This document shows, piece after piece, positions 41,693 to 48,842 of a stretch of 64,000 nt of DNA (positions are counted from its first letter, which is position 1; each line of letters begins with the position of its first letter). The notes below the pieces were generated by a model. It saw nothing but the letters and a program-made list of their open reading frames with translations. It ran no database searches and was not told where the DNA came from. The position numbers and the translations under genes were made by a program. The stretch is from positions 1 through 64,000 of the forward strand of contig JAFPWX010000016.1 in assembly GCA_017412645.1 (NCBI GenBank), written 5' to 3'. Source of the DNA: Bacteroidales bacterium (GTDB taxonomy: Bacteria > Bacteroidota > Bacteroidia > Bacteroidales > UBA932).

Positions 41693-41714
41693 TCTGAGGA
41701 CAAACGCAATTTCC

Positions 41715-43980: not shown

Positions 43981-45390
43981 CTAGCGCCCCTTAATATACT
44001 CGTCAATCGCGGTGGCAGCCTTGCGGCCGGCGCCCATGGCGAGAATCACGGTAGCGGCACCGGTCACCGCATCACCGCCGGCGAAGATACCCGGACGGGT
44101 GGTGGCGCCGGCCTCATCGGCCACAAGGCCTCCGCGCTTGCTGCGCTCAAGACCGGGTGTGGTCTGGGCAATAAGCGGATTGGGAGAAGTCCCTAAAGCC
44201 ATGATGACGGTATCGCATTCCACCATAAACTCGCTGCCGGGGATTTCCACGGGACTGCGGCGTCCGCTGGCGTCGGGCTCTCCCAGTTCCATGCGGATGC
44301 ACTTCATGCCAGTCACGCAGCCGTTTTCGTCTCCAATAATCTCCACCGGATTGGTGAGGAGCTCGAAGCGGATGCCCTCTTCCCTGGCGTGGTGGACCTC
44401 CTCCTTTCGGGCGGGAAGTTCGGACTCGCCGCGCCTATACACTATGGTAGTTTCTGCTCCCAGTCGCAGGGCGGTACGTGCAGCATCCATTGCCACGTTG
44501 CCGCCTCCTACCACGCAGCACTTCACGCCGGCATGGATGGGAGTGCGGTAGTCGGACCTGAAAGCCTTCATCAGATTGTTCCTGGTAAGGAATTCGTTGG
44601 CGGAGAAAACGCCGTTGAGGTTTTCGCCCGGGATGCCCATGAAACGGGGGAGACCTGCGCCTGTGCCAACGAATACGGCCTCGTAGCCTTCATCGTCCAG
44701 AAGGGAGTCGATAAGAGCGGTTCGGCCGACCACAACGTCGGTCTCGATTTTAACGCCAAGAGCGGTCACTTCGTCGATTTCCTTCTGGAGCACGTCGTCT
44801 TTGGGAAGACGGAACTCCGGGATGCCGTATGCGAGCACGCCGCCGGCCTTGTGAAGGGCCTCGAATACGTGAACCTCATACCCCCACTTGGCAAGGTCGG
44901 ATGCGCAGGCAAGGCCGGCGGGGCCGGATCCTATGACCGCAACCTTGTGACCGTTGGCCGGGGCGACGACAGCCTTGGAAGCGGCAGGCGCAGAGGCTCC
45001 TGTTCCGGGAACGCCATGCTGCCAGTCGGCGACGAAGCGCTCTAGTTTGCCGATGGCTACCGGTTCGCCCTTGACGCCGAGTATGCACTTGCCCTCGCAC
45101 TGGGTTTCCTGCGGGCAGACGCGTCCGCACACGGCGGGCAGCGAAGAGTCGCGGGCGATCACTCCGGCTGCGGCGTCGAAATTGCCTGCCAGCACTTCGG
45201 CGATGAAATCGGGGATATTGATGTTCACCGGGCAGCCGGTGACGCAAAGCGGGTTCTTGCAATGCAGGCACCTCGAGGCTTCGAGCATCGCTTCTTCCTT
45301 GTTGTAACCGAAAGAAACTTCCTCGAAGTTGTGTGCACGGACTTTGGGATCCTGTTCACGGACAGGCACTCTGGGAATTCTATTTGCCAT
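43981..45390 (-). CDS. nfnB: NfnB: NADPH-binding subunit of transhydrogenase (GltD-like)
   Basis: 469 aa. N-terminal [4Fe-4S] motifs (CLHCKNPLCVTGCP; CGRVCPQETQCEGKC), FAD motif VIGSGPAGLACASDLAKWG and NADP motif VVGGGNVAMDAARTALRLG. The sequence type is glutamate-synthase small subunit, but pairing with the next gene (NfnA-type) and the absence of a large subunit point to NADH-dependent reduced ferredoxin:NADP+ oxidoreductase. Confidence 0.88.
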   Translation of the reverse strand: MANRIPRVPVREQDPKVRAHNFEEVSFGYNKEEAMLEASRCLHCKNPLCVTGCPVNINIPDFIAEVLAGNFDAAAGVIARDSSLPAVCGRVCPQETQCEGKCILGVKGEPVAIGKLERFVADWQHGVPGTGASAPAASKAVVAPANGHKVAVIGSGPAGLACASDLAKWGYEVHVFEALHKAGGVLAYGIPEFRLPKDDVLQKEIDEVTALGVKIETDVVVGRTALIDSLLDDEGYEAVFVGTGAGLPRFMGIPGENLNGVFSANEFLTRNNLMKAFRSDYRTPIHAGVKCCVVGGGNVAMDAARTALRLGAETTIVYRRGESELPARKEEVHHAREEGIRFELLTNPVEIIGDENGCVTGMKCIRMELGEPDASGRRSPVEIPGSEFMVECDTVIMALGTSPNPLIAQTTPGLERSKRGGLVADEAGATTRPGIFAGGDAVTGAATVILAMGAGRKAATAIDEYIKGR

Positions 45391-46225
45391 AACTGTCCAT
45401 AGCTGCCGTTTCTTCCGGCTTATACTGACGTGATCTTCTCATAGCTTCGTCCCAGTCGATGAGGGCGCCGTCGAATTCGGGACCGTCAACGCAGGAGAAT
45501 CTGGTCTTTCCGCCAACGGACACGCGGCAGGCTCCGCACATTCCGGTGCCGTCGACCATGAGCGAGTTCATGCTCACGATGACGGGAATGCCCAGCTTTA
45601 CGCAGGTGAGGGTGGCGAACTTCATCATTATCATAGGGCCGATGGCGACGCATCTGGTGTACTTCACGCCTTCCGCAACCAGAGCCTCGAGCTTAGCGGT
45701 GCCCACGCCCTTGAATCCCACGGAACCGTCGTCCGTGCAGAGATAGAGATTGTCGCAGGCGCTGGCGAGCTTGTCGGTGTAGATGAGAAGGTCCTGAGTG
45801 CGGGCGCCGATGATTACATCCACTGCAGCGCCGTGTTCGTACAGCCATTTGGCCTGGGGATATACCGGAGCGGTTCCGAGACCGCCGGCGATGAAGACGT
45901 AGCGCTGGCGGGCGAGTTCTTCCGGGGCCATGGTCACGAAATCGGAGGGGTTGCCCAGAGGGCCGACCACGTCGGCATAGGAGTCGCCCACGGAGAAGCG
46001 CTCCACCATATTGTGGCTGGAGGCGCCGATGAGCTGGATAACTATCGTGACAGTGCCGCGCGCCGGGTCGGAATCGCTGATGGTGAGCGGGATACGCTCT
46101 CCCTTCTCCTCGTCCCGGATTATAAGAAACTGCCCCGGGAGGGCAGCTTTCGCGACGCGGGGAGCCTCCACCACTATTTCCGCAATGGTGGGGCAGAGCA
46201 TCGTTTTTTCAAGAATCTGGAACAT
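45380..46225 (-). CDS. nfnA: NfnA: NADH/FAD subunit with 2Fe-2S cluster
   Basis: 281 aa of the dihydroorotate dehydrogenase electron-transfer (PyrK) type: FAD-binding RIPLTISDSDPARGTVTIVIQ, NAD motif FIAGGLGTAPVYPQ and the 2Fe-2S site MCGACRVSVGGKTRFSCVDGPEFDG. It overlaps nfnB by 11 nt. Together they would bifurcate electrons among NADPH, NADH and ferredoxin, complementing Rnf 4 kb upstream. Confidence 0.88.
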   Translation of the reverse strand: MFQILEKTMLCPTIAEIVVEAPRVAKAALPGQFLIIRDEEKGERIPLTISDSDPARGTVTIVIQLIGASSHNMVERFSVGDSYADVVGPLGNPSDFVTMAPEELARQRYVFIAGGLGTAPVYPQAKWLYEHGAAVDVIIGARTQDLLIYTDKLASACDNLYLCTDDGSVGFKGVGTAKLEALVAEGVKYTRCVAIGPMIMMKFATLTCVKLGIPVIVSMNSLMVDGTGMCGACRVSVGGKTRFSCVDGPEFDGALIDWDEAMRRSRQYKPEETAAMDSYGK

Positions 46226-46330: not shown

Positions 46331-48505
46331 CTAGCTGATAAAGAGCATCTCGCGGTACTTGGGCAGCGGCCAGGTCTTATTGTCGACGACTTCTTCAAGT
46401 TTGTCGACGGGACGGCGCAGGTCGTAAAGGCTCTCTGCAATCTCGTGATACGCCAGGGCACGCTTGTAATCGTCCTCGATGGCATTGGCTACCTTGCGGG
46501 CCTCCTTCATGGCCATTGCCTTGACACGGATTTCCTCGACGTACTTATTGATGTCGTCGAGGATGCGCATTTCCGTAGTGCAGTTGTCCAGATTACCATA
46601 GATTTCCTTGGCAAGCGCCACCTCCTTCAGCAGCCTCGCTTTATAATCCAATGCTGCGGGGATGATATGGTTGATGGCCATACGTACCATCACGCGGGAC
46701 TCGATCTGAACCTTTTTGATATAAGTTTCCCACTTAACCTCGTTGCGGGCTTCGAGCTCTTTTTCGCTGAAAACTCCGGTCTTGGTGAACATCTCCACAG
46801 CCGAGGGTTTGGTGAATTCGGCGAACATCTTGGGGACGTTGGTCTCCACATCCAGACCACGCCTGACTGCCTCTTTCTTCCACTCATCGGTATAGCCGTT
46901 TCCTTCGAAGCAAACCACGTCGATGATGGATTTGATGATCGGCTTAAGGGCGTCCATTATGGCTACGTTGGTCTTCTTGCCGGCTGCCAGTTCTTTGTCC
47001 ACCGCCGCCTTGAAGTCGATAAGCTGTTCTGCCACGGCTGCATTGAGCGTGGTCATCGCACCGGCGCAGTTGGCGCAGGAGCCGACAGCGCGGAACTCGA
47101 AGCGGTTGCCGGTGAAGGCGAACGGAGAGGTACGGTTGCGGTCGGTGTTGTCCACGAAGATTTCAGGGATCTCCACGAGGCCCACGCTTTTACCCTTCTT
47201 GCCAGCGATATCAATAGGTGTGTCGGACGGCACTTCCAGCAGTTTGTGCAGCACTTCAGTCATCGTGCGGCCAAGGAATGCGGAGACGATTGCAGGGGGC
47301 GCCTCGTTCGCACCCAGACGGTGAGCGTTGGTAGCGCTTGCGATGGAGGCCTTCAGCAGCGCGTTGTGCTTCTGTACTGCAGCGAGCACGTTCACGAAGA
47401 AGGTTACGAACTGCAAGTTACCCTTGGCATCCTTACCCGGAGCGAGCAGCGGTACGCCCTTGTCGGTACCGAGCGACCAGTTGTTGTGTTTGCCGGAGCC
47501 GTTGATTCCCTCAAAGGGTTTCTCGTGCAGCAGTACCACGAAGCCGTGCTTGCGTGCGAACTGCTTCATCAGGTTCATCACAATCTGGTTCTGATCATTG
47601 GCAAGATTGGTCTCGCCATAAATCGGTGCGAGCTCAAACTGATTTGGAGCTACTTCGTTGTGCCTGGTTTTAAGAGGAATTCCAAGCTTGTGACCGGCCA
47701 CTTCGAGGTCGCGCATAAATGCGGCGACCCGCGGCGGAATGGCCCCGAAATAGTGATCGTCCAGTTGCTGATTCTTGGAAGAATTGTGGCCGAAGAGGGT
47801 CCTGCCGGTAATCATCAGGTCCGGGCGGGCTGCGTACAGAGCCTCATCCACGAGGAAGTACTCCTGCTCCCAGCCGAGGTAGGAATAAACCTTGTCCACC
47901 GTGGGGTCGAACAGGCGGCAGATGGGGACGGCCGCATCGCTAACTGCCTTCAGGGCGCGCTTGAGCGGAGTCTTGTAGTCCAGCGCCTCACCGGTGTAGG
48001 ATATGAACACGGTCGGGATGCAGAGGGTGTCGCCAAGTATGAACACGGGCGAAGTAGGATCCCAGGCGGTATAGCCGCGTGCCTCGAAAGTGGCGCGGAT
48101 ACCTCCGCTGGGGAAAGAAGAAGCGTCGGGTTCCTGTTGTGCTAGCATCTTGCCGTCGAAGGTTTCGATCACTCCTCCCTTGCCATCATAGTCGATGATG
48201 GAGTCGTGCTTCTCAGCTGTACCCTCGGTGAGGGGCTGGAACCAGTGGGTAACGTGGGTGACACCATGTTCAATGGCCCACTCTTTCATACCTTTCGCTA
48301 CGCCGTCTGCGGTTTTTCGGTCAAGGCTTTTGCCACGCTCTATGCAGGCTAGAAGAGCCTGGAGGCAGTTCTTATCGAGGTATTTGCACATTTTGTTGCG
48401 GTCGAACACAAGTTCACCGAAATACTCGGAAGTCTTGCCAACGGGAACTTCTGCCGGTACCTCTCTCCTTTCGAAGGATTCCTTAACCAAATCAAATCTG
48501 TCCAT
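46331..48505 (-). CDS. glnN: Type III glutamine synthetase
   Basis: Makes glutamine from glutamate, ammonia and ATP. It has 724 aa from MDRFDLVKESFERREVP, the GSIII size first described in Bacteroides fragilis, much longer than GSI. GSIII-specific blocks include KTPLKRALKAVSDAA, EQEYFLVDEAL, RHNEVAPNQFELAPIYGE, LLHEKPFEGINGSGKHNNWSLGTD and GANEAPPAIVSAFLG. An upstream in-frame extension to 48559 would cover the terminator stem and is rejected. Control is probably at 48536-48743 (leader ORF plus terminator). Confidence 0.96.
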   Translation of the reverse strand: MDRFDLVKESFERREVPAEVPVGKTSEYFGELVFDRNKMCKYLDKNCLQALLACIERGKSLDRKTADGVAKGMKEWAIEHGVTHVTHWFQPLTEGTAEKHDSIIDYDGKGGVIETFDGKMLAQQEPDASSFPSGGIRATFEARGYTAWDPTSPVFILGDTLCIPTVFISYTGEALDYKTPLKRALKAVSDAAVPICRLFDPTVDKVYSYLGWEQEYFLVDEALYAARPDLMITGRTLFGHNSSKNQQLDDHYFGAIPPRVAAFMRDLEVAGHKLGIPLKTRHNEVAPNQFELAPIYGETNLANDQNQIVMNLMKQFARKHGFVVLLHEKPFEGINGSGKHNNWSLGTDKGVPLLAPGKDAKGNLQFVTFFVNVLAAVQKHNALLKASIASATNAHRLGANEAPPAIVSAFLGRTMTEVLHKLLEVPSDTPIDIAGKKGKSVGLVEIPEIFVDNTDRNRTSPFAFTGNRFEFRAVGSCANCAGAMTTLNAAVAEQLIDFKAAVDKELAAGKKTNVAIMDALKPIIKSIIDVVCFEGNGYTDEWKKEAVRRGLDVETNVPKMFAEFTKPSAVEMFTKTGVFSEKELEARNEVKWETYIKKVQIESRVMVRMAINHIIPAALDYKARLLKEVALAKEIYGNLDNCTTEMRILDDINKYVEEIRVKAMAMKEARKVANAIEDDYKRALAYHEIAESLYDLRRPVDKLEEVVDNKTWPLPKYREMLFIS

Positions 48506-48535
48506 AAGATATACTATTAAAGCACTAACGAATTT

Positions 48536-48573
48536 CAAAAAGAAAAGAGGCTGATCCACTCTGGACCAGCCTC
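48536..48573 (-). terminator. Terminator between leader ORF and glnN (attenuator)
   Basis: On the minus strand GAGGCTGGTCCA pairs with TGGATCAGCCTC around GAG, a continuous 12-bp stem with one G-U, followed by TTTTCTTTTT. It ends 30 nt before the glnN ATG, so it must be bypassed for expression. Confidence 0.9.
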
Positions 48574-48605
48574 AAACTGTTACTTAAACTTCTAATAAAA
48601 ATGAC

Positions 48606-48617
48606 GCATACGGCTGG
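48606..48617 (-). promoter_or_regulatory. Candidate antiterminator segment
   Basis: On the minus strand this reads CCAGCCGTATGC and begins two bases after the leader stop codon. Its CCAGCC can pair with GGCTGG of the terminator's 5' arm (48565-48570); its CGTATGC can pair with GCATACG at leader codons 4-6 (48679-48685). The two options are mutually competing. Confidence 0.55.
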
Positions 48618-48619
48618 AG

Positions 48620-48694
48620 TTATACGCACAAAGAAGTACCCTGGACCTGCTGACCCTGGGTCTGCTGCTGATAACTGACGTATGCCTTTGCCAT
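48620..48694 (-). CDS. Gln-rich 24-aa leader peptide of glnN
   Basis: ATG at 48694, TAA at 48620-48622. The peptide begins MAKAYVSY and then reads QQQTQGQQVQ, with seven Gln, all CAG codons, at positions 9-11, 13, 15, 16 and 18, then ends SLCV. It is followed by a strong terminator and the glutamine synthetase gene, the arrangement of an amino-acid attenuator. That it is translated is inferred. Confidence 0.65.
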   Translation of the reverse strand: MAKAYVSYQQQTQGQQVQGTSLCV

Positions 48695-48713
48695 GATGAG
48701 CAAAAATTTCAAC

Positions 48714-48743
48714 GCAATTTACGAAGAAATATTAATAATGCAA
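48714..48743 (-). promoter_or_regulatory. Candidate promoter of leader-glnN
   Basis: On the minus strand TTG (48741-48743), 19 nt, then TAAATTGC (48714-48721), a near match to TAnnTTTG. Transcription would start about 14 nt before the leader ATG. Read-through from tRNA-Arg is an alternative. Confidence 0.5.
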
Positions 48744-48768
48744 GGCTTTTTTTTGTTTTTGCTCCAGG

Positions 48769-48842
48769 TGATCCCGTTGGGATTCGAACCCAAGACCCAC
48801 AGCTTAGAAGGCTGTTGCTCTGTCCAACTGAGCTACGGGACC
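48769..48842 (-). tRNA. tRNA-Arg (anticodon TCT)
   Basis: 74 nt. Acceptor GGTCCCG/CGGGATC (one G-U), D-arm AGCTCAGTTGGACAGAGC, anticodon arm ACAGC-CTTCTAA-GCTGT with TCT, T-arm GGTTCGAATCCC. CCA is not encoded. No terminator hairpin is evident before the glnN promoter. Confidence 0.95.

Follow-up and report, generated by a model that had tools for sequence, protein, structure and literature searches.

In the attenuators of the trp, his and leu operons, a leader open reading frame (ORF) with many codons for the product of the pathway precedes a terminator and the structural gene, mutually exclusive helices compete in the leader RNA, and the stop codon lies where a ribosome that completes translation blocks the antiterminator. 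These features are shared by an element that lies upstream of glnN, the gene for a type III glutamine synthetase, in a 64,000-nucleotide stretch of the genome of a Bacteroidales gut bacterium (contig JAFPWX010000016.1 of assembly GCA_017412645.1, positions 1 to 64,000; hereafter the window). Unlike the trp, his and leu attenuators, however, this element has glutamine (Gln, Q) and asparagine (Asn, N) codons, it precedes several ammonium-assimilation operons, and its antiterminator looks like a pseudoknot between a hairpin loop and a terminator arm rather than a 2:3 hairpin. Comparison with relatives makes it probable that the element is a Gln leader-peptide attenuator, which would sense the supply of charged tRNA-Gln (charged tRNA-Asn in sister elements) and control glnN through a pseudoknot antiterminator. 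Ribosome-mediated attenuation would then be applied to amide nitrogen, through Gln and Asn codons, in several nitrogen operons.

Other described systems resemble the element in part, as far as the accessible portions of the papers go. The LEU element of actinobacterial leuA (PMC1262725) also joins a leader ORF carrying a run of cognate codons to a conserved pseudoknot, but it is tied to a box and not to a terminator hairpin. The armZ leader PA5471.1 of Pseudomonas aeruginosa (PMC13041342) is an experimentally studied attenuation leader in which Gln codon 3 matters; in contrast to the present case, it has one Gln plus Phe and concerns translation stress and efflux control, not glutamine supply. 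RNA control of glutamine metabolism genes is described for the glutamine riboswitches, which are glutamine-binding aptamers, and for the gltD motif, a riboswitch candidate (PMC8632094); here no such family matched, either in the window at the Rfam gathering threshold or in 11 related loci at E up to 1. In Bacteroidota, short ORFs in 5' untranslated regions have been proposed as attenuators (PMC9723704, PMC7366714), but the accessible portions of these reports name no Gln/Asn leader and no glnN, amtB or asnB element. The original prediction had known of no Gln leader peptide, and full-text literature searches agree with it: judged by titles and abstract openings, none of the matches listed describes a Gln or Asn leader attenuator, most subscription papers lying outside the literature searched.

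Control of ammonium assimilation in Bacteroidota seems little explained. In Prevotella ruminicola 23, a similar gene set (glnK, amtB, asnB, glnN-2, gltBD) changes 26- to 69-fold with ammonium, in a direction that is inconsistent between passages (PMC5552732); the words 'leader' and 'attenuation' are both absent from the accessible main text of that paper. If our reading is true, a leader-peptide switch would be a mechanism for this control in the bacteria that carry it, attenuation would extend to both amide amino acids, and a single RNA scaffold would have been retuned through codon swaps. It also makes a testable claim, namely that a hairpin-loop/terminator pseudoknot can be the antiterminator within a translated leader.

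The leader ahead of glnN

All the parts listed by the original prediction are present on the minus strand (Table 1): a promoter-like site, a 24-codon ORF with seven CAG codons, the CCAGCC motif, a 12-bp terminator and glnN. The leader stretch folds better than its shuffles (z -2.9; 1 of 200 shuffles equal). When both strands of the window are searched for 10-codon stretches with at least five of one residue and a terminator downstream, the Gln run is unique among five matches; of the remaining four, three coincide in part with longer mechanical ORFs and one lies at 41714. Taken alone, the terminator is not beyond chance, because shuffles give 2.3 terminator-like sites where 2 are observed in 2 kb. 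It is mainly the recurrence of the arrangement in relatives that lifts the observation above chance.

This recurrence emerges from the kind of alignment that the original prediction had named as a check. Among 80 glnN loci fetched by protein similarity, with the leader frame called by script and by eye, 18 carry a Gln/Asn-rich leader, with a terminator before glnN (L032-L037, L040, L042-L044, L046-L049, L052 and the distant L078, L086 and L104; L046 is the C. avistercoris locus). In contig number and coordinates, the L046 element coincides with that of G325, a genome of the window's genus, so this genus probably matches Candidatus Cryptobacteroides. The leader nucleotides diverge, with CAA beside CAG in L078 and L086, and both the reading frame and the Q/N-rich middle are maintained, as in MAYTFYNQQQNQQSQGNQAGVVSACV (L034), MMNVFSQQQNQQQSQSQVLGRFAC (L047) and MTRLHQNIVQQQSQQQNLNNVQVRLSVFSHRTSPVMII (L086). 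Per 14 codons, the window and these 18 loci have 4-8 Q in the sense direction versus 2-4 in antisense. Leaderless loci can reach 5 Q in sense (L094) or 6 in antisense (L100), so the Q count by itself is not decisive; what counts, beyond the number of Q, is the co-occurring terminator, loop pairing and promoter.

The glutamine codons proposed for the window leader are there, but relatives use both Gln and Asn, and some glnN leaders are mainly Asn. We found seven further glnN leaders, which are left out of all statistics. One (L068) is a Gln leader with its own terminator. Four (L087, L088, L092, L093) have Asn-rich leaders such as MNKGLNNGKSSALNSKQNSKWNNYKKNLPANPA, followed by CCAGCC and a GGCUGG terminator before glnN; three of these are labelled Salinivirgaceae and L093 only Bacteroidetes. 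The last two (L066, L076) have Asn-containing leaders with PAGE at the end. The Asn-rich type also precedes glnN in genomes G623 and G763 of family f18, outside the family of the window (L150, L151, L252). The glutamine synthetase of these three loci and of the four Asn-rich ones may be tuned to Asn.

Within the 75 nt that precede the leader start, 47 of 72 elements have a promoter resembling that recognized by sigma-ABfr (consensus -33 TTTG / -7 TAnnTTTG in the accessible part of PMC7366714), versus 2.1% of mononucleotide shuffles. In the window, a tRNA-Arg gene (anticodon tct; 48767-48842, minus strand) is found directly upstream of this promoter on the same strand.

Nitrogen operons behind the element

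The attenuator had been predicted for glnN; it does precede glnN, but it also stands before other nitrogen genes and is not glnN-specific. We ran two covariance models, R1 (9 sequences) and R2 (47 sequences), on whole genomes. At E <=1e-5, R2 matched 66 of 250 genus genomes, and at E <=0.01 R1 matched 166 of 398 family genomes, many of these R1 matches being weak and some covering the terminator only. In the genome of the window (a 1.8-Mb assembly), the model search gives one strong element (E 5e-26) and a second match at 0.003. We examined 91 elements, hand-chosen from glnN loci and listed model matches rather than comprising every match; they include near-duplicates, some being the same genome from two collections. 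Accepted were 84, and seven (L317, L319, L323, L324, L327, L328, L329) were rejected for having no leader or no nitrogen gene. Gene names other than glnN come from similarity to translated neighbours and sequence recognition, with no family scan.

The first genes behind the 84 accepted elements are glnN (46), glnK-amtB (18), asnB (13), an outer-membrane protein gene with glnK-amtB (2), purF-asnB (1), gltB (1) and an ATP-grasp operon (3). An intrinsic terminator separates leader and first gene in 81 of them by script (73 after clustering at 90% identity) and in the other three by eye. Leader starts were fixed by a script rule, so that residue counts may include extra residues; with this proviso, the mean Q/N per leader is 6.2/4.0 for glnN, 5.2/6.4 for glnK-amtB and 4.4/6.9 for asnB (L309 included). 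Thus, asnB leaders are on average Asn-richer. In fact, the asnB leader of L184, MMFRANNNNNNYMQNNNYILPLYCVVLPAGHTK, has 9 N and 1 Q, and the leader of L309, MLTGMFYTFNNNNNNNQNLNNEVLRKSRV, has seven consecutive Asn codons ahead of a purF-like amidotransferase gene and then asnB.

In a single genome (G323, locus L184), three elements precede a divergent asnB, glnN-carAB and an outer-membrane protein gene with glnK-amtB; the genome has five R2 matches in all. At L184:1028-7698, glnN and then carA and carB follow one Gln/Asn leader. In L294, L295 and L297 (G323, G307 and G309), an Asn/Gln-rich leader and the element stand before a circularly permuted ATP-grasp/alpha-E/transglutaminase-like operon, followed in L295 and L297 by a gene for an aspartoacylase-like protein. 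An uncharacterised cluster for peptide synthesis is thereby linked to the supply of amide amino acids.

Taken further, nitrogen assimilation in this Bacteroidales family (the genus of the window probably matches Candidatus Cryptobacteroides) and in some relatives might be organised as a cis-encoded regulon of leader-peptide attenuators. It would take in the glnN, glnK-amtB, asnB, gltB, carAB (with glnN), purF and ATP-grasp peptide-synthesis operons; Gln and Asn codons would measure amide supply at the ribosome and a shared pseudoknot antiterminator would act on each operon, replacing a protein nitrogen regulator. We regard this wider proposal as evenly poised between right and wrong.

By sequence comparison, the element appears to be mainly a feature of a single Bacteroidales family, and some cases lie elsewhere. 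When both models were run across the order, most matches were weak; among the 13 + 25 loci inspected, an Asn-rich leader is followed by a nitrogen gene (glnN) only in L150, L151 and L252, and the script found no leader in L147, L153, L259, L263 and L267.

A related anatomy was seen before trpB-like genes of genus g15 (L177:994-1086, L178, L183, L208-L210): the leader contains residues of the FFFWRAWFW type, and there are an outer stem, GUGUUUCU/GGAAACA, a terminator and, in some, an 8-nt-loop hairpin. These look like Trp/Phe attenuators in which the loop-terminator pairing is not clear (about 4 bp, by eye), and they were not counted as members.

Hairpin loop, terminator arm and start-codon helix

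Ahead of the terminator lies a local hairpin, P2, often enclosed by an outer stem, P1 (Table 1). In many elements, the P2 loop includes a stretch complementary to the terminator 5' arm, flanked mostly by 0-4 nt on its 5' side (L1) and 0-1 on its 3' side (L2); the loop is 8 nt long in 18 of 46 scripted cases. P2 stems are clade-specific yet complementary: GUGCGUAUA/UAUGCGUCAU, UAUUACCGCCG/CGGCGGUAAUG, GUGUUUUAU/GUGAGACAC, UAUCUUGUCC/GGAUAAGGUG and CGUGCCAUG/UAUGGCACG. In 24 of 48 representatives, a hairpin exposes 6 nt or more complementary to the element's own arm, versus 0.85 expected from dinucleotide shuffles.

The alternative pairing of CCAGCC with GGCTGG, a central point of the original prediction, is kept by covariation among relatives. 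Besides CCAGCC/GGCUGG in the window, loop and arm read CCGGUC/GGCCGG (L042, L044), ACGGCC/GGCCGU (L172), CCGGUA/UGCCGG (L174), UCAGUC/GGCUGA (L139) and CCGGUC/GACCGG (L315). When terminator arms were permuted among 70 elements, the observed score was reached in 0 of 2000 permutations; with 57, 45 and 30 representatives (80, 70 and 60% identity) it was reached in 0, 0 and 3 of 5000, in tests that ignore phylogeny. If the partner is slid by 1-3 columns, 18-55% of cells remain paired instead of 93.7%; such a control is biased towards any structure derived from the sequences themselves. The putative antiterminator is 6 bp long, as predicted. This length had been called a weak point, but it may instead be that of a pseudoknot stem built on P2, because P2 (often with P1) presents CCAGCC. 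We consider an H-type pseudoknot of the P2 loop and the terminator 5' arm to be the probable antiterminator.

The predicted pairing of leader codons 4-6 with the sequence overlapping CCAGCC generalises to a helix, P0, between the start-codon region and the P2 3' strand. It beats permutations at every level of redundancy (0, 0, 1 and 3 of 5000 for 57, 48, 37 and 27 elements, the last being the set below 60% identity), with long matches in L296, L306 and L294. The minimum-energy fold of the whole window leader includes P0 and the terminator. P0 and P2 are mutually exclusive because both use the same 3' strand.

Table 1. Features of the glnN leader region in the window
Feature	Position	Strand	Basis
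glnN, type III glutamine synthetase, 724 amino acids; start codon ATG at 48505	46331..48505	-	GSIII_N 4.1e-75, Gln-synt_C-ter 2.6e-36, Gln-synt_C 2.9e-20
Intrinsic terminator, 12 pairs, then TTTTCTTTTT; 5' arm GGCTGG 48566-48571 can pair with the P2 loop	48547..48573	-	Terminator scan; T-rich run 48537-48546
P2 3' strand TATGCGTCAT, one bulge, shared with P0	48601..48610	-	Hairpin comparison, P0 permutations
Putative antiterminator CCAGCC (48617..48612, part of CCAGCCGTATGC), within P2 loop 48611-48620	48612..48617	-	Covariation with terminator 5' arm
P2 5' strand GTGCGTATA, overlapping the leader stop	48621..48629	-	Stem varies between clades, complementarity kept
P1 5' strand ACTTCT, pairs with AGAAGT 48588-48593, encloses P2	48632..48637	-	Similar outer stems elsewhere, by eye only
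Leader ORF MAKAYVSYQQQTQGQQVQGTSLCV, 24 codons plus TAA	48620..48694	-	Gln/Asn-rich counterparts in relatives
Regulatory codons, 7 CAG (codons 9, 10, 11, 13, 15, 16, 18)	48641..48670	-	Sequence
P0 5' strand GCATACG (codons 4-6), can pair with CGTATGC 48606-48612	48679..48685	-	Minimum-energy fold and signal in the element set
Promoter-like TTG-N19-TAAATTG, resembling a sigma-ABfr promoter	48715..48743	-	Motif search over elements

The proposed switch, its difficulties and its alternatives

The account that follows infers ribosome stalling, the tRNA signal with its response to Gln, the geometry of the pseudoknot and the direction in which glnN would be controlled. In the free RNA, P0 would form between the start-codon region and the P2 3' strand, the terminator would form and glnN would be off; P0 in the window would be this ribosome-free state. 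When Gln is short, a ribosome would stall on the CAG run, displace P0 and stop about at the foot of P2. P2 would then fold, its loop CCAGCC would pair with the terminator arm GGCUGG in an H-type pseudoknot, and RNA polymerase would read through. When Gln is plentiful, the ribosome would reach the stop inside or just after P2, melt P2 and cover CCAGCC, and the terminator would form. The leading edge of a ribosome lies ~14 nt from the start of the A site, and in the window P2 starts 12 nt past the last CAG, with the leader stop codon spanning the P2 5' strand and loop. A ribosome at the last CAG would just reach P2, and one at the first CAG codons would leave P2 free and cover codons 4-6. In L042, L044, L052, L078 and L086 the stop follows P2, which would have the same consequence for a finishing ribosome.

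Several results weigh against this reading. On the side of the pairing, 24 of the 48 representatives miss the strict hairpin-plus-loop rule, and L139 has loop/arm covariation but no good P2. An own pairing of at least 6 bp is found in 45 of 70 elements (64%), but also in 54% of swapped pairs, since arms are common to many elements; a 10 x 10 swap among divergent elements had the own arm in first or joint first place for 5 of 10. Single elements beat their shuffles at p<0.05 in 28 of 50 cases, clade A5 (14 sequences) shows a change on both sides in 2 of 15 pairs, matched by 6 of 500 shuffles, and the permutations, as said, take no account of descent. A 6-bp antiterminator would also have to compete with a 12-bp terminator. 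On the side of the leaders, the search models contain CAG columns and so partly select for Gln, but not for the genes or for the Asn shift. The asnB leaders of L195 (9 Q/6 N) and L300 (6/6) are not Asn-shifted; together with the mainly Asn leaders of the Salinivirgaceae-type glnN genes, they imply that codon choice is not strictly tied to the enzyme. On the side of distribution, L064 and L065 carry a terminator of the GGCUGG type ahead of glnN but no clear Q/N run, and the element is absent from many glnN genes, including some close ones (L038, L045, L050); L045, a second glnN copy, shares its assembly prefix with L043, which has the element. No convincing case was seen in 40 glnN and 16 amtB regions sampled across the order, nearly all from other families, where at least 4 Q+N in 12 codons ahead of a terminator occurred in 5 of 56 sense versus 9 of 56 antisense regions. 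Our confidence in the pseudoknot attenuator is slightly lower on account of the swap counts and of leaders that break the Gln/Asn rule.

The same leader could work in a strictly classical trp-type manner, with CCAGCC/GGCUGG as a plain 2:3 helix, P0 as the 1:2 helix and P2 as an incidental or pause hairpin only. This is how the P0-plus-terminator fold of the whole leader, the P0 signal against permutations and the half of the representatives that lack a strict P2 could be read. We nevertheless hold it to be unlikely: the antiterminator sits in a P2 loop in far more representatives than the 0.85 expected, P2 stems vary by clade while staying complementary, and the 8-nt loop recurs.

Compact recurrent hairpins ahead of glutamine genes could also suggest a riboswitch, in which the leader RNA would bind glutamine or another metabolite directly and the ORF would be secondary. 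In fact, a title cited in PMC8632094 has a glutamine riboswitch controlling a cyanobacterial glutamine synthetase. Here, however, Rfam covariance models at the gathering threshold matched only a 5S rRNA and two tRNAs in the whole window, and nothing over the element. In the 11 related loci, at E up to 1, the only match over the element was a sub-threshold L20_leader in L132 (29 bits; threshold 58.7), with no match to Bacteroid-trp and none above threshold to any other Rfam leader family. P2 is highly variable in sequence, and the mean Asn/Gln ratio of the peptide differs with the downstream enzyme. A riboswitch is therefore very improbable.

To a functional small protein, or to stalling by the nascent chain rather than by tRNA shortage, we give hardly any credence: many peptides do share a Q/N-rich middle and a similar length, but their termini are unconserved across clades, they vary in length, some have the stop within P2 and others beyond it, and mean composition moves to Asn before asnB.

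Downstream of glnN in the window, on the same strand (43981-46225), lie two genes, one for a protein whose Fe-S domain is of the dihydroorotate-dehydrogenase type and one for a flavoprotein with Fer4_20 and Pyr_redox_2 domains. The two proteins are possibly a ferredoxin:NADP reductase or a glutamate-synthase-like pair.

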